Below are positions 25,725 to 34,302 of a DNA stretch of 64,000 bases, one piece after another. The position numbers and the translations under genes are program-made. Position 1 is the first letter of the stretch. Each line of letters begins with the position of its first letter. The notes below the pieces were generated by a model that worked only from the letters and a program-made list of their open reading frames with translations, was not told the origin of the DNA and ran no database searches. Source of the DNA: an uncultured Bacillota bacterium. Its GTDB lineage: Bacteria; Bacillota; Clostridia; Peptostreptococcales; Anaerovoracaceae. The DNA lies in contig CASEFA010000002.1 of NCBI GenBank assembly GCA_949287095.1, forward strand, positions 1 through 64,000. The letters run 5' to 3'.

Positions 25725-27278
<1,554 letters not shown>

Positions 27279-27314: not shown

Positions 27315-27375
27315 CAAATAATTATTTGTTTAGACGCAATTAATGCTTGATTTTGTAATTCTGCTGTGTTATTGT
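27315..27375 (+). promoter_or_regulatory. Promoter of the aromatic amino acid operon, with upstream palindrome
   Basis: TTGATT (27347-27352), 17-nt spacer, TATTGT (27370-27375). Upstream lies a perfect 14-bp palindrome CAAATAATTATTTG (27315-27328), a candidate operator. Confidence 0.7.
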
Positions 27376-27406
27376 AGTTGTATCATTCGGAAAGGAACAC
27401 ATTTTG

Positions 27407-27487
27407 ATGAAGAATTTATTCTTTGCAGCAGAATATTACTTTTACTACTTTTTCTTTACCAACAGAAAAAGTCTTTTTGCTGCATAG
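27407..27487 (+). CDS. Phe/Tyr-rich leader peptide of the aro operon
   Basis: A 26-codon reading frame with a GGAAAGGA ribosome site. Residues 5-6 are FF and 10-17 are YYFYYFFF, with another F at 24: seven Phe and four Tyr in 26. It lies between the promoter and an intrinsic hairpin upstream of aroF. Composition and position match attenuation leader peptides such as those of pheA or pheST, where ribosome stalling at Phe/Tyr codons prevents termination. Its own sequence holds alternative pairings (ACTTTTTCT 27447-27455 with AGAAAAAGT 27464-27472; TGCAGCA 27424-27430 with TGCTGCA 27478-27484). Confidence 0.85.
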   Translation: MKNLFFAAEYYFYYFFFTNRKSLFAA

Positions 27488-27496
27488 AAAACTTTT

Positions 27497-27535
27497 AGCA
27501 ATTTGTGAATAAACCACCGGAATACTGAAATTGCT
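27497..27535 (+). promoter_or_regulatory. Leader hairpin between leader peptide and attenuator
   Basis: AGCAATTT (27497-27504) pairs perfectly with AAATTGCT (27528-27535). Candidate intermediate (2:3 or anti-antiterminator) structure in the aro leader. Confidence 0.55.
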
Positions 27536-27538
27536 TAG

Positions 27539-27573
27539 AAAGGCTCTGCGGCGAAAAGACGCAGGGCCTTTTA
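27539..27573 (+). terminator. Attenuator hairpin upstream of aroF
   Basis: AAAGGCTCTGCG (27539-27550) pairs with CGCAGGGCCTTT (27560-27571), 12 bp with one G-U, followed by a short TTTT run (27569-27572). Directly precedes the aroF ribosome site. Confidence 0.7.
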
Positions 27574-27593
27574 GATTACTTAGGAGGGAAAAC

Positions 27594-28592
27594 ATGATTA
27601 CCGTATTGAAACAGGGAACGACAGTGGAGCAGAGAGACCAGCTTATTAAATGGTTTGAGGATCAGGGACTTAGAGTTCACGTGTCGGTGGGAGAGTATCA
27701 GACGGTTTTGGGTCTCATTGGAGATACTACCAAAGTCGATACCGATATGCTCGAGCTTCTTGATATTGTGGACTTTGTCAAGAGAATCACCGAGCCGTTT
27801 AAAAACGCAAACAGAAAGTTCCACCCTGAGGACACAGTAATCGACGTCGGCGGCGCGAAGATAGGCGGAGGCAATTTTGCGGTAATCGCAGGGCCGTGCT
27901 CCGTGGAGACGGAGGAGCAGATTACCGAGGTTGCAAGGCGCGTAAAGGCGGCGGGAGCCACCATGTTAAGAGGCGGCGCTTTCAAGCCGAGAACATCGCC
28001 ATACGATTTCCAGGGACTGAAGGCCGACGGAATAGAGCTTCTGGTAAAGGCTAAGAAGGAGACGGGCCTTCCTATCGTGACCGAGATAATGAACGCCAAC
28101 CACCTTCCTCTCTTTGAGGACGTGGACGTGATCCAGGTAGGCGCGAGAAACATGCAGAACTTCGAGCTTTTAAAGGAGCTGGGAAAGACAAAGAAGACAA
28201 TCCTCTTAAAGAGAGGCCTTGCCAACACCTTCAAGGAGCTTCTCATGAGCGCCGAATACATCATGAGCGAAGGAAATGAGAACGTAATACTCTGCGAGAG
28301 AGGAATCAGAACCTTTGAGACATACACCAGAAACACTCTGGATCTTTCCGCGGTATGCGCCCTTCACGAGCTCACCCATCTGCCTGTAGTGGTAGACCCG
28401 AGTCACGCCACGGGAAGAGCCGACTACGTAAAGCCGATGGCCATGGCGGCAACGGCCTGCGGTGCGGACGGAATAATGATAGAGGTTCACAACAACCCGG
28501 CAAAGGCTCTCTGCGACGGAGCCCAGTCGGTAACTCCTGACCAGTTCGACGATATAATGAGCAGGATAAAGACCATAAGAGAGGTAATATAG
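27594..28592 (+). CDS. aroF: 3-deoxy-7-phosphoheptulonate synthase, type I-beta (AroF)
   Basis: 332 residues. N-terminal ferredoxin-like regulatory domain (about 1-70) followed by the DAHP synthase barrel, with IAGPCSVE (about 99-106), LRGGAFKPRTSPYDFQG, and DPSHATGR near residue 263. This is the Thermotoga/Bacillus-like I-beta form in which the N-terminal domain mediates feedback inhibition. It condenses PEP and erythrose 4-phosphate as the first step to chorismate. ATG after TAGGAGGG. First structural gene of the operon; the tyrA ATG abuts its stop codon. Confidence 0.95.
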   Translation: MITVLKQGTTVEQRDQLIKWFEDQGLRVHVSVGEYQTVLGLIGDTTKVDTDMLELLDIVDFVKRITEPFKNANRKFHPEDTVIDVGGAKIGGGNFAVIAGPCSVETEEQITEVARRVKAAGATMLRGGAFKPRTSPYDFQGLKADGIELLVKAKKETGLPIVTEIMNANHLPLFEDVDVIQVGARNMQNFELLKELGKTKKTILLKRGLANTFKELLMSAEYIMSEGNENVILCERGIRTFETYTRNTLDLSAVCALHELTHLPVVVDPSHATGRADYVKPMAMAATACGADGIMIEVHNNPAKALCDGAQSVTPDQFDDIMSRIKTIREVI

Positions 28593-29438
28593 ATGAACAT
28601 AGGGGTTGTGGGACTCGGCCTTATAGGCGGGTCGCTGGCAAAAGCGTATAAGAAAAAGGGCTTTACGGTTCTGGCATGGAACCGGAACAGGGTCATAACC
28701 GACTTTGCGAAGATGTCGGGGGACATCGACGGCGAACTGACGGCGGAAAATCTGGGAGAGTGCGACTGCATATTCCTCTCCATAACCACAGGCGGCGCCA
28801 TAGACTGGCTTGTTGAAAACGCCGGGAAGATACCTGCGGGAGTCATCGTCATGGACTGCTGCGGTATAAAGCGCAAAGTCTGCGAAACGGGATTTCGCCT
28901 CGCCGGCGAAAACGGGTTTACCTTCGTCGGAGGCCATCCCATGGCGGGAAAGCAGGTGGGAGGCTTCAAAAACAGCAGCGGCGATATCTTCGAGGGCTCG
29001 GTCTTTGCCATAGTGCCGGAGGACATGAACGACATAGGCCTTCTGACAAGGATAAAGGAAATCCTTAAGCCGGCAGGATTTACACGCTTTGCGGTAATGA
29101 CGGCCGAAGAGCACGACGAGATAATAGCCTACACGTCCCAGATGACTCACCTGGTGTCCAACGCCTTCATTAAGAGCAGAACGGCCATGAGCCGCAACGC
29201 AAAGGTTACGGGAGGCAGCTTCCGGGACTTTACAAGAGTGGCGTACCTTGACGAGAACATGTGGACGGAGCTTTTCCTTGAGAACAGGGATAACCTTATC
29301 TACGAGCTTGAGACCCTGATGGGAGAGCTTGAGAGGTACCTTAAGGCTCTTAAGGACGGCGACGAAGGGGAACTTAAAGACCTTCTCGCCGAGGGAAAGA
29401 AAAGGAAGGAAGAGGTGGAGTGCAATGCATCTTCTTGA
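28593..29438 (+). CDS. tyrA: Prephenate dehydrogenase
   Basis: 281 residues. Rossmann NAD(P)-binding motif GVVGLGLIGGSLAKAY at the start, then the GGHPMAGKQ substrate-binding segment (about 112-120) and the all-helical dimerisation domain. It oxidatively decarboxylates prephenate to 4-hydroxyphenylpyruvate for tyrosine. No ACT domain, so feedback regulation may be weak, consistent with control through the operon leader. It overlaps aroB by 14 nt. Confidence 0.93.
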   Translation: MNIGVVGLGLIGGSLAKAYKKKGFTVLAWNRNRVITDFAKMSGDIDGELTAENLGECDCIFLSITTGGAIDWLVENAGKIPAGVIVMDCCGIKRKVCETGFRLAGENGFTFVGGHPMAGKQVGGFKNSSGDIFEGSVFAIVPEDMNDIGLLTRIKEILKPAGFTRFAVMTAEEHDEIIAYTSQMTHLVSNAFIKSRTAMSRNAKVTGGSFRDFTRVAYLDENMWTELFLENRDNLIYELETLMGELERYLKALKDGDEGELKDLLAEGKKRKEEVECNASS

Positions 29439-30414
29439 GGCTGAAAATAGAATCCGTGAGATTATAAAAGGTGATTCCATGGCCGTAATAACGGACTCTA
29501 ACGTAGGACCTTTGTATTTAAAGAAGGTCAGCGAATTTGTAAACCGAATTGGTTTTAAAGTTTACAGCATGGAAATACCTGCGGGAGAGGAGTCGAAGAA
29601 CGGAGAGACCTATCTTTCTATCCTTGAATTTCTCGCCGGAATTCCCCTTACGAGAACGGACGGAGTTATAGCTCTCGGAGGCGGAGTGGTCGGCGACATT
29701 GCAGGCTTTGCGGCGGCGACCTTCTTAAGGGGCATCAAAGTCATTCAGATTCCCACCAGCCTTCTTGCGGCGGTGGACTCCTCGGTGGGAGGAAAGACGG
29801 CCATAAACCTGAAGGCGGGAAAGAACCTTGCCGGAGCCTTTCACCAGCCGGCCCTCGTGATTCAGGACCCGGAGTTTTTAAAGACCATGCCTGATGACAT
29901 CTTCACCGACGGAATGGCCGAAGTCATAAAGTACGGCGTTCTGGCGGATCCGGAGCTTTTTGCCATGCTGAAGGACGTAAGGGCCGTAAGGGAAAATCCC
30001 GAGCCTGTCGTTACAAGGTGCGTCGAAATAAAGAAGAGATACGTTGAAGAGGACGAGTTTGACACAGGAGTGCGCCAGATGCTGAACCTGGGACACACCA
30101 TAGGCCACGCCGTAGAGAAGCTGAGCGATTTCAAGGTGTCCCACGGAAGAGCCGTTGCAATCGGTATGGATATGATGGCCGAGATCGCCGAAAGGCAGGG
30201 GTGGTGCGAACACGTCGCCAGAGAGGAAATCAGAGAGATGCTGGAGCTATGGGGCTTCGACCTTACGAGAAGATATACTAAAGAAGAAATTTACGGTATA
30301 ATGCAGACGGACAAAAAGCGCAAAGGTTCGTCCATAGACATAGTCGTTCCCGAAAGGATTGGCAGGTGCGCCCTTAAGAGGATTTCGATGGAAGAGCTTA
30401 AGGAGATACTATGA
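29425..30414 (+). CDS. aroB: 3-dehydroquinate synthase
   Basis: 329 residues. NAD-binding glycine motif GGGVVGDIAGFAAATFLRG (about 75-93), zinc-ligand segments around EVIKYG and LNLGHTIGHAVE, and HGRAVAIGM. It cyclises DAHP to 3-dehydroquinate. Slightly shorter than the E. coli type (362), mainly through a compact N-terminus. The ATG at 29425 sits inside the end of tyrA with GAGGTGGAG upstream; a longer in-frame extension lacks such a site. Ends in an ATGA overlap with aroA. Confidence 0.94.
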   Translation: MHLLEAENRIREIIKGDSMAVITDSNVGPLYLKKVSEFVNRIGFKVYSMEIPAGEESKNGETYLSILEFLAGIPLTRTDGVIALGGGVVGDIAGFAAATFLRGIKVIQIPTSLLAAVDSSVGGKTAINLKAGKNLAGAFHQPALVIQDPEFLKTMPDDIFTDGMAEVIKYGVLADPELFAMLKDVRAVRENPEPVVTRCVEIKKRYVEEDEFDTGVRQMLNLGHTIGHAVEKLSDFKVSHGRAVAIGMDMMAEIAERQGWCEHVAREEIREMLELWGFDLTRRYTKEEIYGIMQTDKKRKGSSIDIVVPERIGRCALKRISMEELKEIL

Positions 30415-31700
30415 GAGAGGTAAAGGTTATTCCGTCAAAATCCGACGCCCACAGAGCCATGATATGCGCAGCCCTTGCGGAGATTCAGTCGGGGCTTAAC
30501 GGAGACGGAGCGTGCAAAATAATATGCGATGAGACGTCAAAGGACATGGACGCTACGTCAAAGTGCCTTGAAGCTCTTAAAGAAGCTTTATCCGGCGGGC
30601 CGGGCGCGTCAGAACAGGACTCTTGCGGCGAAAAGCCCGGAGAGGCAGAGCAGGCAAAGCCTGCGGTTCTCATGTGCGGCGAAAGCGGCTCCACCCTGAG
30701 ATTTCTCCTTCCCGTAACGGCGGCCCTGGGAGTAAGCGGGGATTTTATGCCGGAGGGTAGACTTCCCCAAAGGCCTCTTTCACCGCTGTATGAGGAAATG
30801 ACGGCTCACGGATGCGAAATGAGCCCTCAGGGCAGCGTTCCCTTCAAAGTCAGAGGAAAGCTCATGCCGGGGAAGTACACTTTGCCCGGTAACGTATCGT
30901 CCCAGTACATAACGGGACTTCTGCTGGCTCTTCCTCTTCTGGAAGGAGACAGCGCCATAGAGGTTACGACGACTCTGGAGTCTGCGGCCTATGTGGACAT
31001 GACTCTTAAGGTGATGAGAGACTTCGGTATGGATATCGGCGTGTCCGGAGAGAAATGTCCGAAGTACATGATAAAGGGAGGGCGGAGATACTCGGCTCCT
31101 CCTGTATACGAGGTGGAGGGCGACTGGTCAAACGCCGCATTCTGGCTGGCGGCAGGGGCTCTCACCGAAGAAGGGGTAAAGTGCCGAGGACTCAGAGGAG
31201 ATTCTGTTCAGGGCGATAAAGCCGTAGCGGACATTCTGAAAGCCATGGGCGCAAATGTTGAAACCGGCGAGGATTTTGTCGCCGTGAAAAGAGGAAGGCT
31301 TCACGGAATAACCGTGGACGCGGGGCCCATTCCCGATATGATTCCGGCCCTGTCGCTGGTCGCCTGTGCCGCCGAAGGGGAAACACACATAGTCAACGCC
31401 GGACGGCTGAGGATAAAGGAAAGCGACAGACTGTCCTCCATAACGGACGTTCTCACGGGGCTTGGAGCAGACGTGACCGAGCTTGAGGACGGACTGGTGA
31501 TAAGAGGAAAGGGAAGCCTTGAGGGCAGAAAAGCGGACGGACATAACGATCACAGGATAGTGATGATGGCCTCGGTTGCGTCCCTTATCAGTATGAAGCC
31601 CGTAACCATAGAGGGGGCGGAAGCCGTCGGAAAATCCTATCCTGCGTTTTTTGACAGAATGAGAGAGATGGGCCTTGACGGCAATCTGATTTTGAAGTAG
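30411..31700 (+). CDS. aroA: 3-phosphoshikimate 1-carboxyvinyltransferase (EPSP synthase)
   Basis: 429 residues. Substrate motifs: PSKSDAHRAMI at the N-terminus, GESGSTLRFLLP (about 92-103), VSSQYITGLLLALPL, DWSNAAFWLAAG, and RIKESDRLSS with HNDHRIVMM near the C-terminus. It joins PEP to shikimate 3-phosphate. The glycine motif carries Ser in GESGSTLR where glyphosate-sensitive class I enzymes have NAGT. A low-complexity insertion (about residues 62-86, rich in Gly, Glu, Ala) precedes that motif and the N-terminal strand is short. Confidence 0.93.
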   Translation: MREVKVIPSKSDAHRAMICAALAEIQSGLNGDGACKIICDETSKDMDATSKCLEALKEALSGGPGASEQDSCGEKPGEAEQAKPAVLMCGESGSTLRFLLPVTAALGVSGDFMPEGRLPQRPLSPLYEEMTAHGCEMSPQGSVPFKVRGKLMPGKYTLPGNVSSQYITGLLLALPLLEGDSAIEVTTTLESAAYVDMTLKVMRDFGMDIGVSGEKCPKYMIKGGRRYSAPPVYEVEGDWSNAAFWLAAGALTEEGVKCRGLRGDSVQGDKAVADILKAMGANVETGEDFVAVKRGRLHGITVDAGPIPDMIPALSLVACAAEGETHIVNAGRLRIKESDRLSSITDVLTGLGADVTELEDGLVIRGKGSLEGRKADGHNDHRIVMMASVASLISMKPVTIEGAEAVGKSYPAFFDRMREMGLDGNLILK

Positions 31701-31709
31701 GAGAGAAAC

Positions 31710-32708
31710 ATGTCATCTACATACGGAGAAAACCTGAAAATATCCATATTCGGCCAGTCCCACTCGGAGGCCATAGGCGTGGTGATAGACGGCCTGCCTG
31801 CAGGCTTTGAGGTGGATATGGACGAGCTTGGCGAATTTTTAGCGCGAAGAGCCCCGGGACAGGGAAAGCACACCACCAGCAGGAAGGAGCCGGACAGACC
31901 GGAATTTCTTTCGGGCCTTGCGGGGGGCAAAACCTGCGGAGCGCCTCTGGCGGCGTTGATACGAAACACCAATACCAGAAGCTCGGACTACGATAATATA
32001 AGAGATATTCCGCGGCCGGGACATGCGGACTTTGCGGCGAGGATAAAGTACGGCGGAGCGGAGGACGTAAGCGGCGGCGGACATTTTTCGGGCCGTCTGA
32101 CGGCGCCTCTTTGCATAGCCGGAGGCATAGCCCTTCAGATTTTGAAGGAGAAGGGAATCACCGTGAAGGCCGAAATAAAGGAAATCGGAGGAAAGAAGGA
32201 CGGCTTCCTTGAGACCGTTGAAGAGGCGAGGCTTGACGCCGATTCAGTAGGCGGAGTCATAGAATGTGTCATCGAGGGGGTCTCGGCAGGGTACGGAAAC
32301 CCCATGTTCGGCGGCGTGGAGAACAAAATTGCCTCCTGCGTTTTCGGAATCCCCGCGGTCAAGGGCGTGGAGTTCGGCGCAGGCTTTGAGGCGGCGAGAA
32401 TGCGCGGAAGCGAAAACAACGACGAATTCTACTATGAGGAGGACGGAAGGGTGAGAACCAGGACCAACAACCATGGAGGAATCCTGGGGGGAATCACCAC
32501 CGGAATGCCCATAGTTTTCAGGGCAGCATTTAAACCGACGCCGTCCATAGGAAAGCCTCAGAAGAGCATAAGCTTTTCGGAGAAAAAGGACGCGGTACTT
32601 GAGATAAAGGGAAGACACGACCCGTGCGTGGTCATGAGAGCAGTACCATGCGTTGAGGCCGCTGCGGCAATAACAGTTTTAGACATTATTTTAGGAGGAA
32701 AGAACTGA
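31710..32708 (+). CDS. aroC: Chorismate synthase
   Basis: 332 residues. Signature motifs are GQSHSEAIGVVIDGLPAG near the N-terminus, RPGHADFAARIKYG (about 104-117), the SGRLTA turn, and TRTNNHGGILGGITTGMPI near residue 252. It converts EPSP to chorismate using reduced FMN. Shorter than many (350-390) but all cofactor segments are present. Overlaps pheA by one base (TGATG). Confidence 0.95.
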   Translation: MSSTYGENLKISIFGQSHSEAIGVVIDGLPAGFEVDMDELGEFLARRAPGQGKHTTSRKEPDRPEFLSGLAGGKTCGAPLAALIRNTNTRSSDYDNIRDIPRPGHADFAARIKYGGAEDVSGGGHFSGRLTAPLCIAGGIALQILKEKGITVKAEIKEIGGKKDGFLETVEEARLDADSVGGVIECVIEGVSAGYGNPMFGGVENKIASCVFGIPAVKGVEFGAGFEAARMRGSENNDEFYYEEDGRVRTRTNNHGGILGGITTGMPIVFRAAFKPTPSIGKPQKSISFSEKKDAVLEIKGRHDPCVVMRAVPCVEAAAAITVLDIILGGKN

Positions 32709-33847
32709 TGAACTTAGACGACTACAGAGCTGACATTGACAGGATTGACAGAGAACTGGTGGAAAAGCTTGAGGAGAGAATGCACGTGGCGGAAAAAATC
32801 GCCGTGTACAAGAAGGAGCACGATCTTCCTATCACCGACGAGCTGAGAGAAAGAGCCCTTCTGGATAAGATTACGGATATGTCTTCTCCCGATATGGCCC
32901 TTTACAACAGGATGCTCTGGGGAACGCTGATGGATATGAGCAAGGATCACCAGAGAAAGGCCACCCAGGGGGACAGCAAGCTTGTAAAGACAATAAAGGA
33001 GACTCTGGAGACGACGCCGAAGGTATTTCCGGCTCAGGCCGTAGTTGCGTGTCAGGGCGTGGAGGGAGCATACTCTCAGGCGGCCTGCGACAAGCTGTTC
33101 AAAATGCCTAAAATCATGTATGTGAAGAACTTCAAAGGCGTTTTTGCCGCAATAAATCAGGGCCTGTGCCAGTACGGAATCCTGCCCGTTGAAAACAGCA
33201 GCGCCGGCTCAGTAAATCAGGTCTACGACCTGATGATGGAATACAACTTCCACATCGTAAGGAGCATACGCCTTAGAATCGACCACAACCTTCTGGCAAA
33301 GAAAGGCGTTAAGAAAGAAAACATCAGGGAAATAGTGTCCCACGAGCAGGCAATCGCCCAGTGCGAGGACTATCTGAAGCAGTTCCCGATGGCAAAGATA
33401 ACGGTTCTGGAGAATACCGCCGAGGCTGCGAAGATGGTGGCGGAGTCGGGCAGAGACGACATCGCGGCCATATCCTCCTATTCCTGCGGAAAGCTCTACG
33501 GCCTTGAGTTCATCGAGGAAGCCATTCAGGACAACGACAACAACTACACCAGATTCATCTGCATTTCCAAAAATCTGGAGATATATCCGGGCGCAAACAA
33601 GACGAGCCTTATGCTGGTGGTGGACCACAAGCCGGGTTCCCTCTACAACGTGCTTTCAAGGTTCTACGCCCTGGGCATAAACCTTGTAAAGCTGGAGAGC
33701 CGTCCGCTTCCTGAAAGAGAATTCGAGTTTATGTTCTACTTCGACATAGAGGCCGAGGTGTACGCGGAAGAGTTCGCCCGCATGATGAACCAGCTGGAGG
33801 AGATGTCCAGAGAGTTCAGATATCTGGGAAGCTACAGCGAAGTGTAA
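32708..33847 (+). CDS. pheA: Bifunctional chorismate mutase / prephenate dehydratase
   Basis: 379 residues in three domains: AroQ-type chorismate mutase (about 1-85, IDRELVEKLEERMHVAEKIA), prephenate dehydratase (about 108-285, with the catalytic NYTRFICI Thr-Arg-Phe motif) and a C-terminal ACT domain (about 295-375, ESRPLPEREFEFMFYFD). It makes phenylpyruvate from chorismate. The ACT phenylalanine site has HKPGSLYNVL where GALV is usual, so Phe feedback may be altered. Operon position fits the Phe/Tyr leader peptide. Confidence 0.95.
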   Translation: MNLDDYRADIDRIDRELVEKLEERMHVAEKIAVYKKEHDLPITDELRERALLDKITDMSSPDMALYNRMLWGTLMDMSKDHQRKATQGDSKLVKTIKETLETTPKVFPAQAVVACQGVEGAYSQAACDKLFKMPKIMYVKNFKGVFAAINQGLCQYGILPVENSSAGSVNQVYDLMMEYNFHIVRSIRLRIDHNLLAKKGVKKENIREIVSHEQAIAQCEDYLKQFPMAKITVLENTAEAAKMVAESGRDDIAAISSYSCGKLYGLEFIEEAIQDNDNNYTRFICISKNLEIYPGANKTSLMLVVDHKPGSLYNVLSRFYALGINLVKLESRPLPEREFEFMFYFDIEAEVYAEEFARMMNQLEEMSREFRYLGSYSEV

Positions 33848-33867: not shown

Positions 33868-34302
33868 ATGAAGATTTTGGTGATCAACGGGCCGAATCTG
33901 AATATGCTCGGAATCCGCGAGCCCGAAATATACGGCTCGGCGACCTATGACGACCTGCTGGATACGGTCAGAAGGGGCGCAGACGGCCTCGGAATGGAAG
34001 TCGATTTTTTCCAGTCCAATCACGAAGGGGCGGTGGTTGATGAGATCCAGCGAGCATACGGCGTTTACGACGGAATCGTAATAAACCCGGCGGCCTATAC
34101 CCACACCAGCGTGGCTCTTCTCGATGCCATAAAGGCCGTGGGAATTCCGGCAGTGGAGGTTCACATATCGGACGTTAGAGAGCGGGAGGATTTCCGTCAG
34201 GTTTCATACGTCCGCAAAGGCTGCATCGGAACCGTCATGGGCGAAGGCTTTGACGGGTACGTTCACGCTTTGAGAATTTTAAAGGAGCACATGGAAGGAT
34301 AA
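33868..34302 (+). CDS. aroQ: 3-dehydroquinate dehydratase, type II
   Basis: 144 residues, typical length. Active-site features: INGPNLNMLGIREPEIYG with the catalytic Tyr, SNHEGAVVDEIQ, NPAAYTHTSVAL, and the VEVHISDVREREDFR segment. It dehydrates 3-dehydroquinate to 3-dehydroshikimate. Genes for shikimate dehydrogenase and shikimate kinase are not in this cluster. Its stop is immediately followed by the next ATG. Confidence 0.95.
   Translation: MKILVINGPNLNMLGIREPEIYGSATYDDLLDTVRRGADGLGMEVDFFQSNHEGAVVDEIQRAYGVYDGIVINPAAYTHTSVALLDAIKAVGIPAVEVHISDVREREDFRQVSYVRKGCIGTVMGEGFDGYVHALRILKEHMEG

Follow-up and report, generated by a model that had tools for sequence, protein, structure and literature searches.

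A probable leader-peptide attenuator reading Phe and Tyr upstream of an aro operon in a clostridial genome

One may ask how a clostridium controls an operon that covers the common aromatic pathway together with both branches to phenylalanine and tyrosine. In Clostridia, the T-box is the customary switch named for amino acid genes, and leader-peptide attenuators are known from Proteobacteria, at trp, his, pheA, pheST and ilv. The question is raised by a window of 64,000 nt (the whole stretch of DNA that was analysed) from a genome of the family Anaerovoracaceae, class Clostridia, for which AroF points to Emergencia sp. as the closest named organism (80%). The window holds the following genes and the ribosome-binding site of the first of them:

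27582-27587, + strand: aroF ribosome-binding site AGGAGG (sequence)
27594-28592, + strand: aroF, type I DAHP synthase, the first gene under the proposed control (NCBIfam TIGR01361, 405.7 bits against a cut-off of 267.75)
28593-29438, + strand: tyrA, prephenate dehydrogenase-like (top NCBIfam matches all prephenate dehydrogenase, under the equivalog cut-offs)
29425-30414, + strand: aroB, 3-dehydroquinate synthase (TIGR01357)
30411-31700, + strand: aroA, EPSP synthase (TIGR01356)
31710-32708, + strand: aroC, chorismate synthase (TIGR00033)
32708-33847, + strand: pheA, chorismate mutase-prephenate dehydratase (NF008865 above its cut-off, with chorismate mutase domain matches)
33868-34302, + strand: aroQ, type II dehydroquinate dehydratase (TIGR01088)

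An earlier, sequence-only reading of this DNA had called the operon complete, which does not hold, as aroE and shikimate kinase are located elsewhere in the genome: the best aroE match lies at G000:C1:166405-167229, under its cut-off, and shikimate kinase has two good matches, at C2:128560 and C3:75162. The gene upstream of the locus (25725-27278) encodes a ribosomal-protection-like ABC-F protein (NF000355 above its cut-off). Between this gene and aroF lie a promoter-like element and a short frame rich in aromatic codons:

27347-27375, + strand: putative promoter, -35 TTGATT (27347-27352), 17-nt spacer, extended -10 TG-n-TATTGT (27367-27375); 8/12 to consensus in a script consensus scan
27389-27396, + strand: leader ribosome-binding site GGAAAGGA (sequence; a GAAAGGA-like stretch stands 5' of the leader ATG in many close relatives)
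27407-27487, + strand: leader peptide ORF MKNLFFAAEYYFYYFFFTNRKSLFAA*, 26 codons, ATG at 27407 and stop at 27485-27487 (sequence and ORF translation)
27434-27457, + strand: control codons YYFYYFFF, codons 10-17 (sequence; kept aromatic in relatives)

The leader agrees exactly with what had been described before, namely a frame of 26 codons with YYFYYFFF at codons 10-17 and FF at codons 5-6, and the ORF, its ribosome-binding site and the conservation of its codons point to a short translated ORF carrying control codons for the end products. By pattern search, an uninterrupted run of eight Tyr/Phe codons (TWYx8) has two matches in the 1.95-Mb genome, the second of which (G000:C5:84928) was considered as another attenuator and rejected, being antisense to a response-regulator gene. 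The search for eight Y/F codons across the genome family was unspecific, the reversed control pattern matching about equally often in AT-rich genomes. The promoter is not the consensus one that had been claimed: TTGATT-17-TATTGT agrees at 8 of 12 positions, with an extended -10 TG, and a stricter scan called no promoter at the leader locus. A promoter upstream of the leader is nonetheless plausible from the sequence; most close relatives have the same extended -10 arrangement about 46-64 nt 5' of their leader start, and the promoter of L015 is a perfect TTGACA-17-TATAAT.

The RNA of this region (27380-27600) folds with -56.9 kcal/mol, z = -4.57 against dinucleotide shuffles, none of 200 shuffles being as good. 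Its predicted folds contain helices that exclude one another and are built from the following elements:

27424-27433, + strand: region 1 UGCAGCAGAA, around the Ala-Ala-Glu codons, forming the protector (anti-antiterminator) with 27475-27484 (predicted fold)
27471-27488, + strand: region 2 GUCUUUUUGCUGCA..GA, common to the protector hairpin and the antiterminator (stalled-state fold and covariation)
27497-27535, + strand: inner stem AGCAAUUU / AAAUUGCU, which juxtaposes regions 2 and T (predicted folds; analogous stem in some relatives)
27545-27560, + strand: antiterminator partner UCUGCGGCGAAAAGAC, the terminator 5' arm and loop (stalled-state fold)
27538-27572, + strand: terminator hairpin, 13 bp with a 9-nt loop and a weak U-tract UUUUAGAUU, four of the Us inside the stem (predicted fold)

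The protector 1:2 stands beside the control codons, as both the fold and covariation indicate, and its hairpin is predicted to be extended by pairing of 27447-27455 with 27464-27472. When the ribosome is set as stalled on the control codons, the fold shows the antiterminator instead, 27471-27488 against 27545-27560, with 16 bp and one 2-nt bulge. Between the leader and the first structural gene a candidate intrinsic terminator is predicted, ending 21 nt 5' of aroF; its U-tract in the window is weak, and a simple pattern scan of the window calls no terminator at 27538-27572. Several claims of the sequence-only reading were thereby confirmed: the alternative pairings at 27447-27472 and 27497-27535 are present in the predicted folds, the GC-rich hairpin 5' of the aroF ribosome site was located at 27538-27572 (13 pairs, 9-nt loop), and the short T-run, which it had named as the weakest part, is indeed weak, with most Us within the stem. 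The folding for exclusive structures that it had recommended returned mutually exclusive helices, including the antiterminator that it had missed. Once the antiterminator has formed, the 3' strand of the terminator, CCUUUUAG, is free in the predicted fold and can also pair with UUAGGAGG and so mask the aroF ribosome-binding site (27565-27587); this pairing is possibly a second, modulating layer, or chance.

A hairpin near the aroF start might also block ribosome loading, and not transcription. Such translational attenuation would fit a hairpin that ends only about 10 nt 5' of AGGAGG, the weak U-tract of the window and the ability of the 3' arm to pair with the ribosome-binding region in the stalled-state fold. 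It is however unlikely, since the Shine-Dalgarno sequence lies outside the hairpin and is paired in the fold with the antiterminator formed, which is the wrong direction for induction, and since in relatives the hairpin stands a median of 30 nt from aroF and often has a run of U, such as TTTTTT, behind it. Across the loci, a hairpin with a T-rich tail comes after each leader, and hairpins of -12 kcal/mol or lower were found in 97% of leader-bearing loci versus 13% of shuffled sequences.

The covariation test used no fitted alignment: for each locus, its region 2 was set against the terminator arms of all the others; such partner permutation was chosen over a covariance model because the alternative helices share region 2, which makes permutation the more direct. 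For the antiterminator 2:T, cognate pairs of 70 loci had a mean of -14.5 kcal/mol versus -11.4 for permuted ones (z = -9.8, which, like the other z-scores of the test, ignores phylogeny and is to be read as strong, not exact), and the window's own pairing was the best of 70 in its row. The repeat gave z = -10.4 (n = 75), -7.5 (n = 45, below 80% AroF identity) and -7.3 (n = 29, below 75%), and the reversed-sequence control reached only about -3. Cognate duplexes of the protector 1:2 likewise beat non-cognate ones (z = -9.8 to -10.2). Both helices therefore covary among orthologs (z about -10), as the sequence-only reading had proposed to check, and the antiterminator is a covariation-supported structure exclusive with the terminator. 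The same pairing is made with different letters in L015 (AGUGAUUUC/GAAAUCACU), L034 (GCGAUUGAU/AUUAAUCGC) and L026 (AGCGAUUUGUGC/GCACGAAUUGC). In L087 and L089 the UUUUGCUGC element persists even though the leader frame stops 5' of region 2; the element is therefore conserved as RNA, not as peptide.

The position of the ribosome strongly affects which helix is expected. For transcripts whose polymerase has only just cleared the loop, the mean 2:T pair count expected over 72 loci was 12.4 for a stalled ribosome, 4.3 for a ribosome at the stop codon and 5.3 for none, versus 7.0 with a shuffled arm. In the window the values were 17.9 (stalled), 0.03 (at the stop) and 17.4 (without ribosome), the last of which indicates that region 1 hardly competes in this genus, so that the finishing ribosome would be the main force for termination. 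At equilibrium most relatives favour the complete terminator even with a stalled ribosome (the terminator's probability is below 0.5 in only 11 of 75), and in the window its probability is 0.48 stalled versus 0.96 at the stop; the switch must therefore act kinetically, while the RNA is being made, which is the accepted view of classical attenuators. The distance from the last Y/F codon to the antiterminator start is 15-28 nt in 80% of loci (median 20) and 14 nt in the window, and from what is known of ribosome footprints the antiterminator start would sit just past the leading edge of the stalled ribosome. With the stop codon at 27485 inside region 2, the spacing fits a mechanism in which region 2 is exposed while the ribosome is held at the control codons and covered once it reaches the end of the leader; among 72 relatives, 12 have their stop codon beyond the range of -15 to +35 relative to the helix start.

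Very probably, charged tRNA-Phe and tRNA-Tyr are sensed jointly at this locus by a ribosome-mediated transcription attenuator of the classical kind. The idea of Phe/Tyr leader-peptide attenuation came from the sequence-only reading, and it gains support from the conserved leader frame and from the covarying alternative stems, the antiterminator among them; leader, control codons, three mutually exclusive helices, their covariation and the spacing are established from the sequence, its predicted folds and the comparison with orthologs. Ribosome stalling, termination in vivo and the response to Phe/Tyr supply we infer as follows. The promoter would give the leader RNA, on which a ribosome would translate the 26-codon peptide. 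When both amino acids are plentiful, the ribosome would reach the stop at 27485-27487, its footprint would cover region 2 (27471-27488), the terminator at 27538-27572 would fold and transcription would end before aroF. When Phe-tRNA or Tyr-tRNA is short, the ribosome would stall within codons 10-17 and cover region 1 (27424-27433), leaving region 2 free because the latter begins 14 nt after the last control codon. Free region 2 would then capture the terminator's 5' arm and loop (27545-27560) as they emerge, leaving the hairpin no time to form, and aroF-tyrA-aroB-aroA-aroC-pheA-aroQ would be transcribed.

How far is the leader kept among aroF orthologs? The gene and its upstream DNA were taken from 80 public genome contigs plus genomes of the same genus and family, which gave 107 distinct 400-nt upstream stretches, and a leader was defined as a short frame, opening with ATG or GTG, in which Tyr or Phe fills 6 or more of 8 codons. 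Such a frame was found in 77 of the 107 clostridial regions, a set biased to close orthologs and thus not a frequency for all Clostridia, versus 0.33% of dinucleotide shuffles and 0 of 107 reverse strands; the sequence-only reading had named orthologous leaders devoid of a Phe/Tyr-rich frame as the outcome that would speak against it. Both Tyr and Phe are used in 75 of the 77 leaders, and Trp sensing was rejected as a general feature, with TGG in only 6 of 77. Within the run the Tyr/Phe fraction is 0.86 in the coding frame and 0.24 and 0.13 in the other two. Close relatives exchange TAT/TAC or TAT/TTT codons and keep the residue aromatic, and the order of Y and F varies. In a wider Bacillota sample, the leader is common in families with AroF more than about 58% identical and mostly absent below (about 57%).

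The remaining 30 loci fail the strict leader criterion. Nine close aroF orthologs (L007, L014, L017, L044, L045, L048, L056, L058 and L062) gave no Tyr/Phe frame in the first scan, and 12 aroF loci, mostly leaderless-looking and including these nine, gave no Rfam match. A second-looking leader type is seen in L004, L006, L134, L146, L147, L152 and L154, with two aromatic clusters split by Gly and ending in motifs such as FYFSAGYFCC or FYFSTGYW; it may be a sub-class of the same attenuator. In the same-genus aroF of L083 (G001:C48:5619-6614, otherwise 99% identical), one in-frame TGA and one TAG were counted in the match, which may reflect an assembly error or an edge effect.

The variation among leaders also bears on TnaC-like nascent-peptide arrest, in which the peptide with free Phe or Tyr as ligand, and not uncharged tRNA, would stall the ribosome. 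The strong conservation of FAAEYYFYYFFF in the closest relatives speaks for such arrest; across Clostridia, however, the Tyr/Phe order and all surrounding residues vary, the conserved Ala-Ala is explained by RNA because its GCAGCA pairs with UGCUGC, and arrest by abundant Phe or Tyr would switch synthesis on at a time of no demand, so that this alternative is very improbable. It is more improbable still that the run merely reflects T-rich DNA and the hairpin serves as an ordinary terminator of the ABC-F gene: that gene does end at 27278 and the leader region is AT-rich, but a chance T-rich frame is rejected by the shuffles, the reverse strands and the frame test, in which the other frames are unenriched, and the helices covary. 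Actual regulation by a T-box, a TRAP site or some other trans-acting control has next to no likelihood, for although the genome contains T-boxes and clostridia usually govern amino acid genes by them, the window has no Rfam family at threshold (only chance-level unrelated matches at E up to 10) and the genome's four T-boxes lie elsewhere.

The earlier remark that no T-box motif is seen was thus correct, the Rfam search giving no RF00230 match, and no T-box sequence, at the aroF locus; ten orthologous leader loci likewise matched no family of Rfam 15 at the gathering threshold. The four T-boxes (L112-L115) lie at G000:C3:71519, C16:40526, C6:13415 and C4:22599, only the first being above the Rfam cut-off, and the genes behind them read, by eye from translations, as trpB, leuA, valS and ileS. 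A single genome appears to assign T-boxes to its Trp, Leu, Val and Ile genes and a leader peptide to the Phe/Tyr operon.

Leader-peptide attenuation in Firmicutes is already known. In the open-access literature searched, no description of a leader-peptide attenuator was found for aro operons of Clostridia. It is rather likely that the loci form an undescribed class, widespread in gut Clostridia, in which one peptide responds to the combined supply of Phe and Tyr, though generally not of Trp, and controls the whole common aromatic pathway through a covarying antiterminator between region 2 and the terminator loop, T-boxes being left to the Trp, Leu, Val and Ile genes. If so, a large block of Clostridia would move from "T-box or unknown" to leader-peptide control of aromatic amino acid synthesis, with Emergencia, Sporobacter termitidis and Angelakisella as named cultured examples in the set, and both tRNA-sensing strategies would stand side by side in one genome. 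The compact dual Phe/Tyr sensor would be directly testable, and the covariation-supported three-state RNA could enter Rfam.

Among known systems, the T-box riboswitch (RF00230) shares transcription antitermination in answer to uncharged tRNA in Clostridia, but needs no leader peptide or ribosome and is absent at the aroF locus. The contrast drawn by the sequence-only reading, attenuation being classical in Proteobacteria and T-box or TRAP control usual in Firmicutes, is too narrow on the Firmicutes side, where his, hisZ/hisS and ilv attenuators are published (PMC2965389, PMC9413887, PMC5794164). Leader-peptide attenuators of the his operon in B. cereus, C. difficile relatives and Erysipelotrichales (PMC9413887) and of hisS/hisZ in Bacilli (PMC2965389) have the same leader peptide with a codon run, terminator and antiterminator, also in Eubacteriales (PMC9413887), but sense His, not Phe/Tyr, and serve other operons. 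The Leu-rich attenuator of Staphylococcus aureus ilv-leu, supported by suppressor mutations, is likewise ribosome-mediated in a Firmicute where other species use a T-box, but senses Leu (probably also Ile) and controls another operon (PMC5794164). The closest in gene context is the uORFC-13-1 motif, a Phe-coding uORF before Acholeplasma aroF for which attenuation was proposed (PMC8632094); in its text description, on which the comparison is based, it shares the uORF 5' of aroF, a promoter, at least one Phe codon and an adjacent terminator, but its 24 representatives come only from Acholeplasma and environmental sequences, only Phe is mentioned there and Clostridia are not reported (PMC8632094). 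With the attenuators of Proteobacteria the locus has in common a short ORF with end-product codon runs, a protector 1:2, an antiterminator, a terminator and a stop codon positioned for the finishing ribosome to mask region 2; it departs from them in that one peptide mixes Phe and Tyr codons and would control the common aromatic pathway with both branches, that the antiterminator joins region 2 to the terminator's 5' arm and loop around an inner stem, and that the host is a clostridium.
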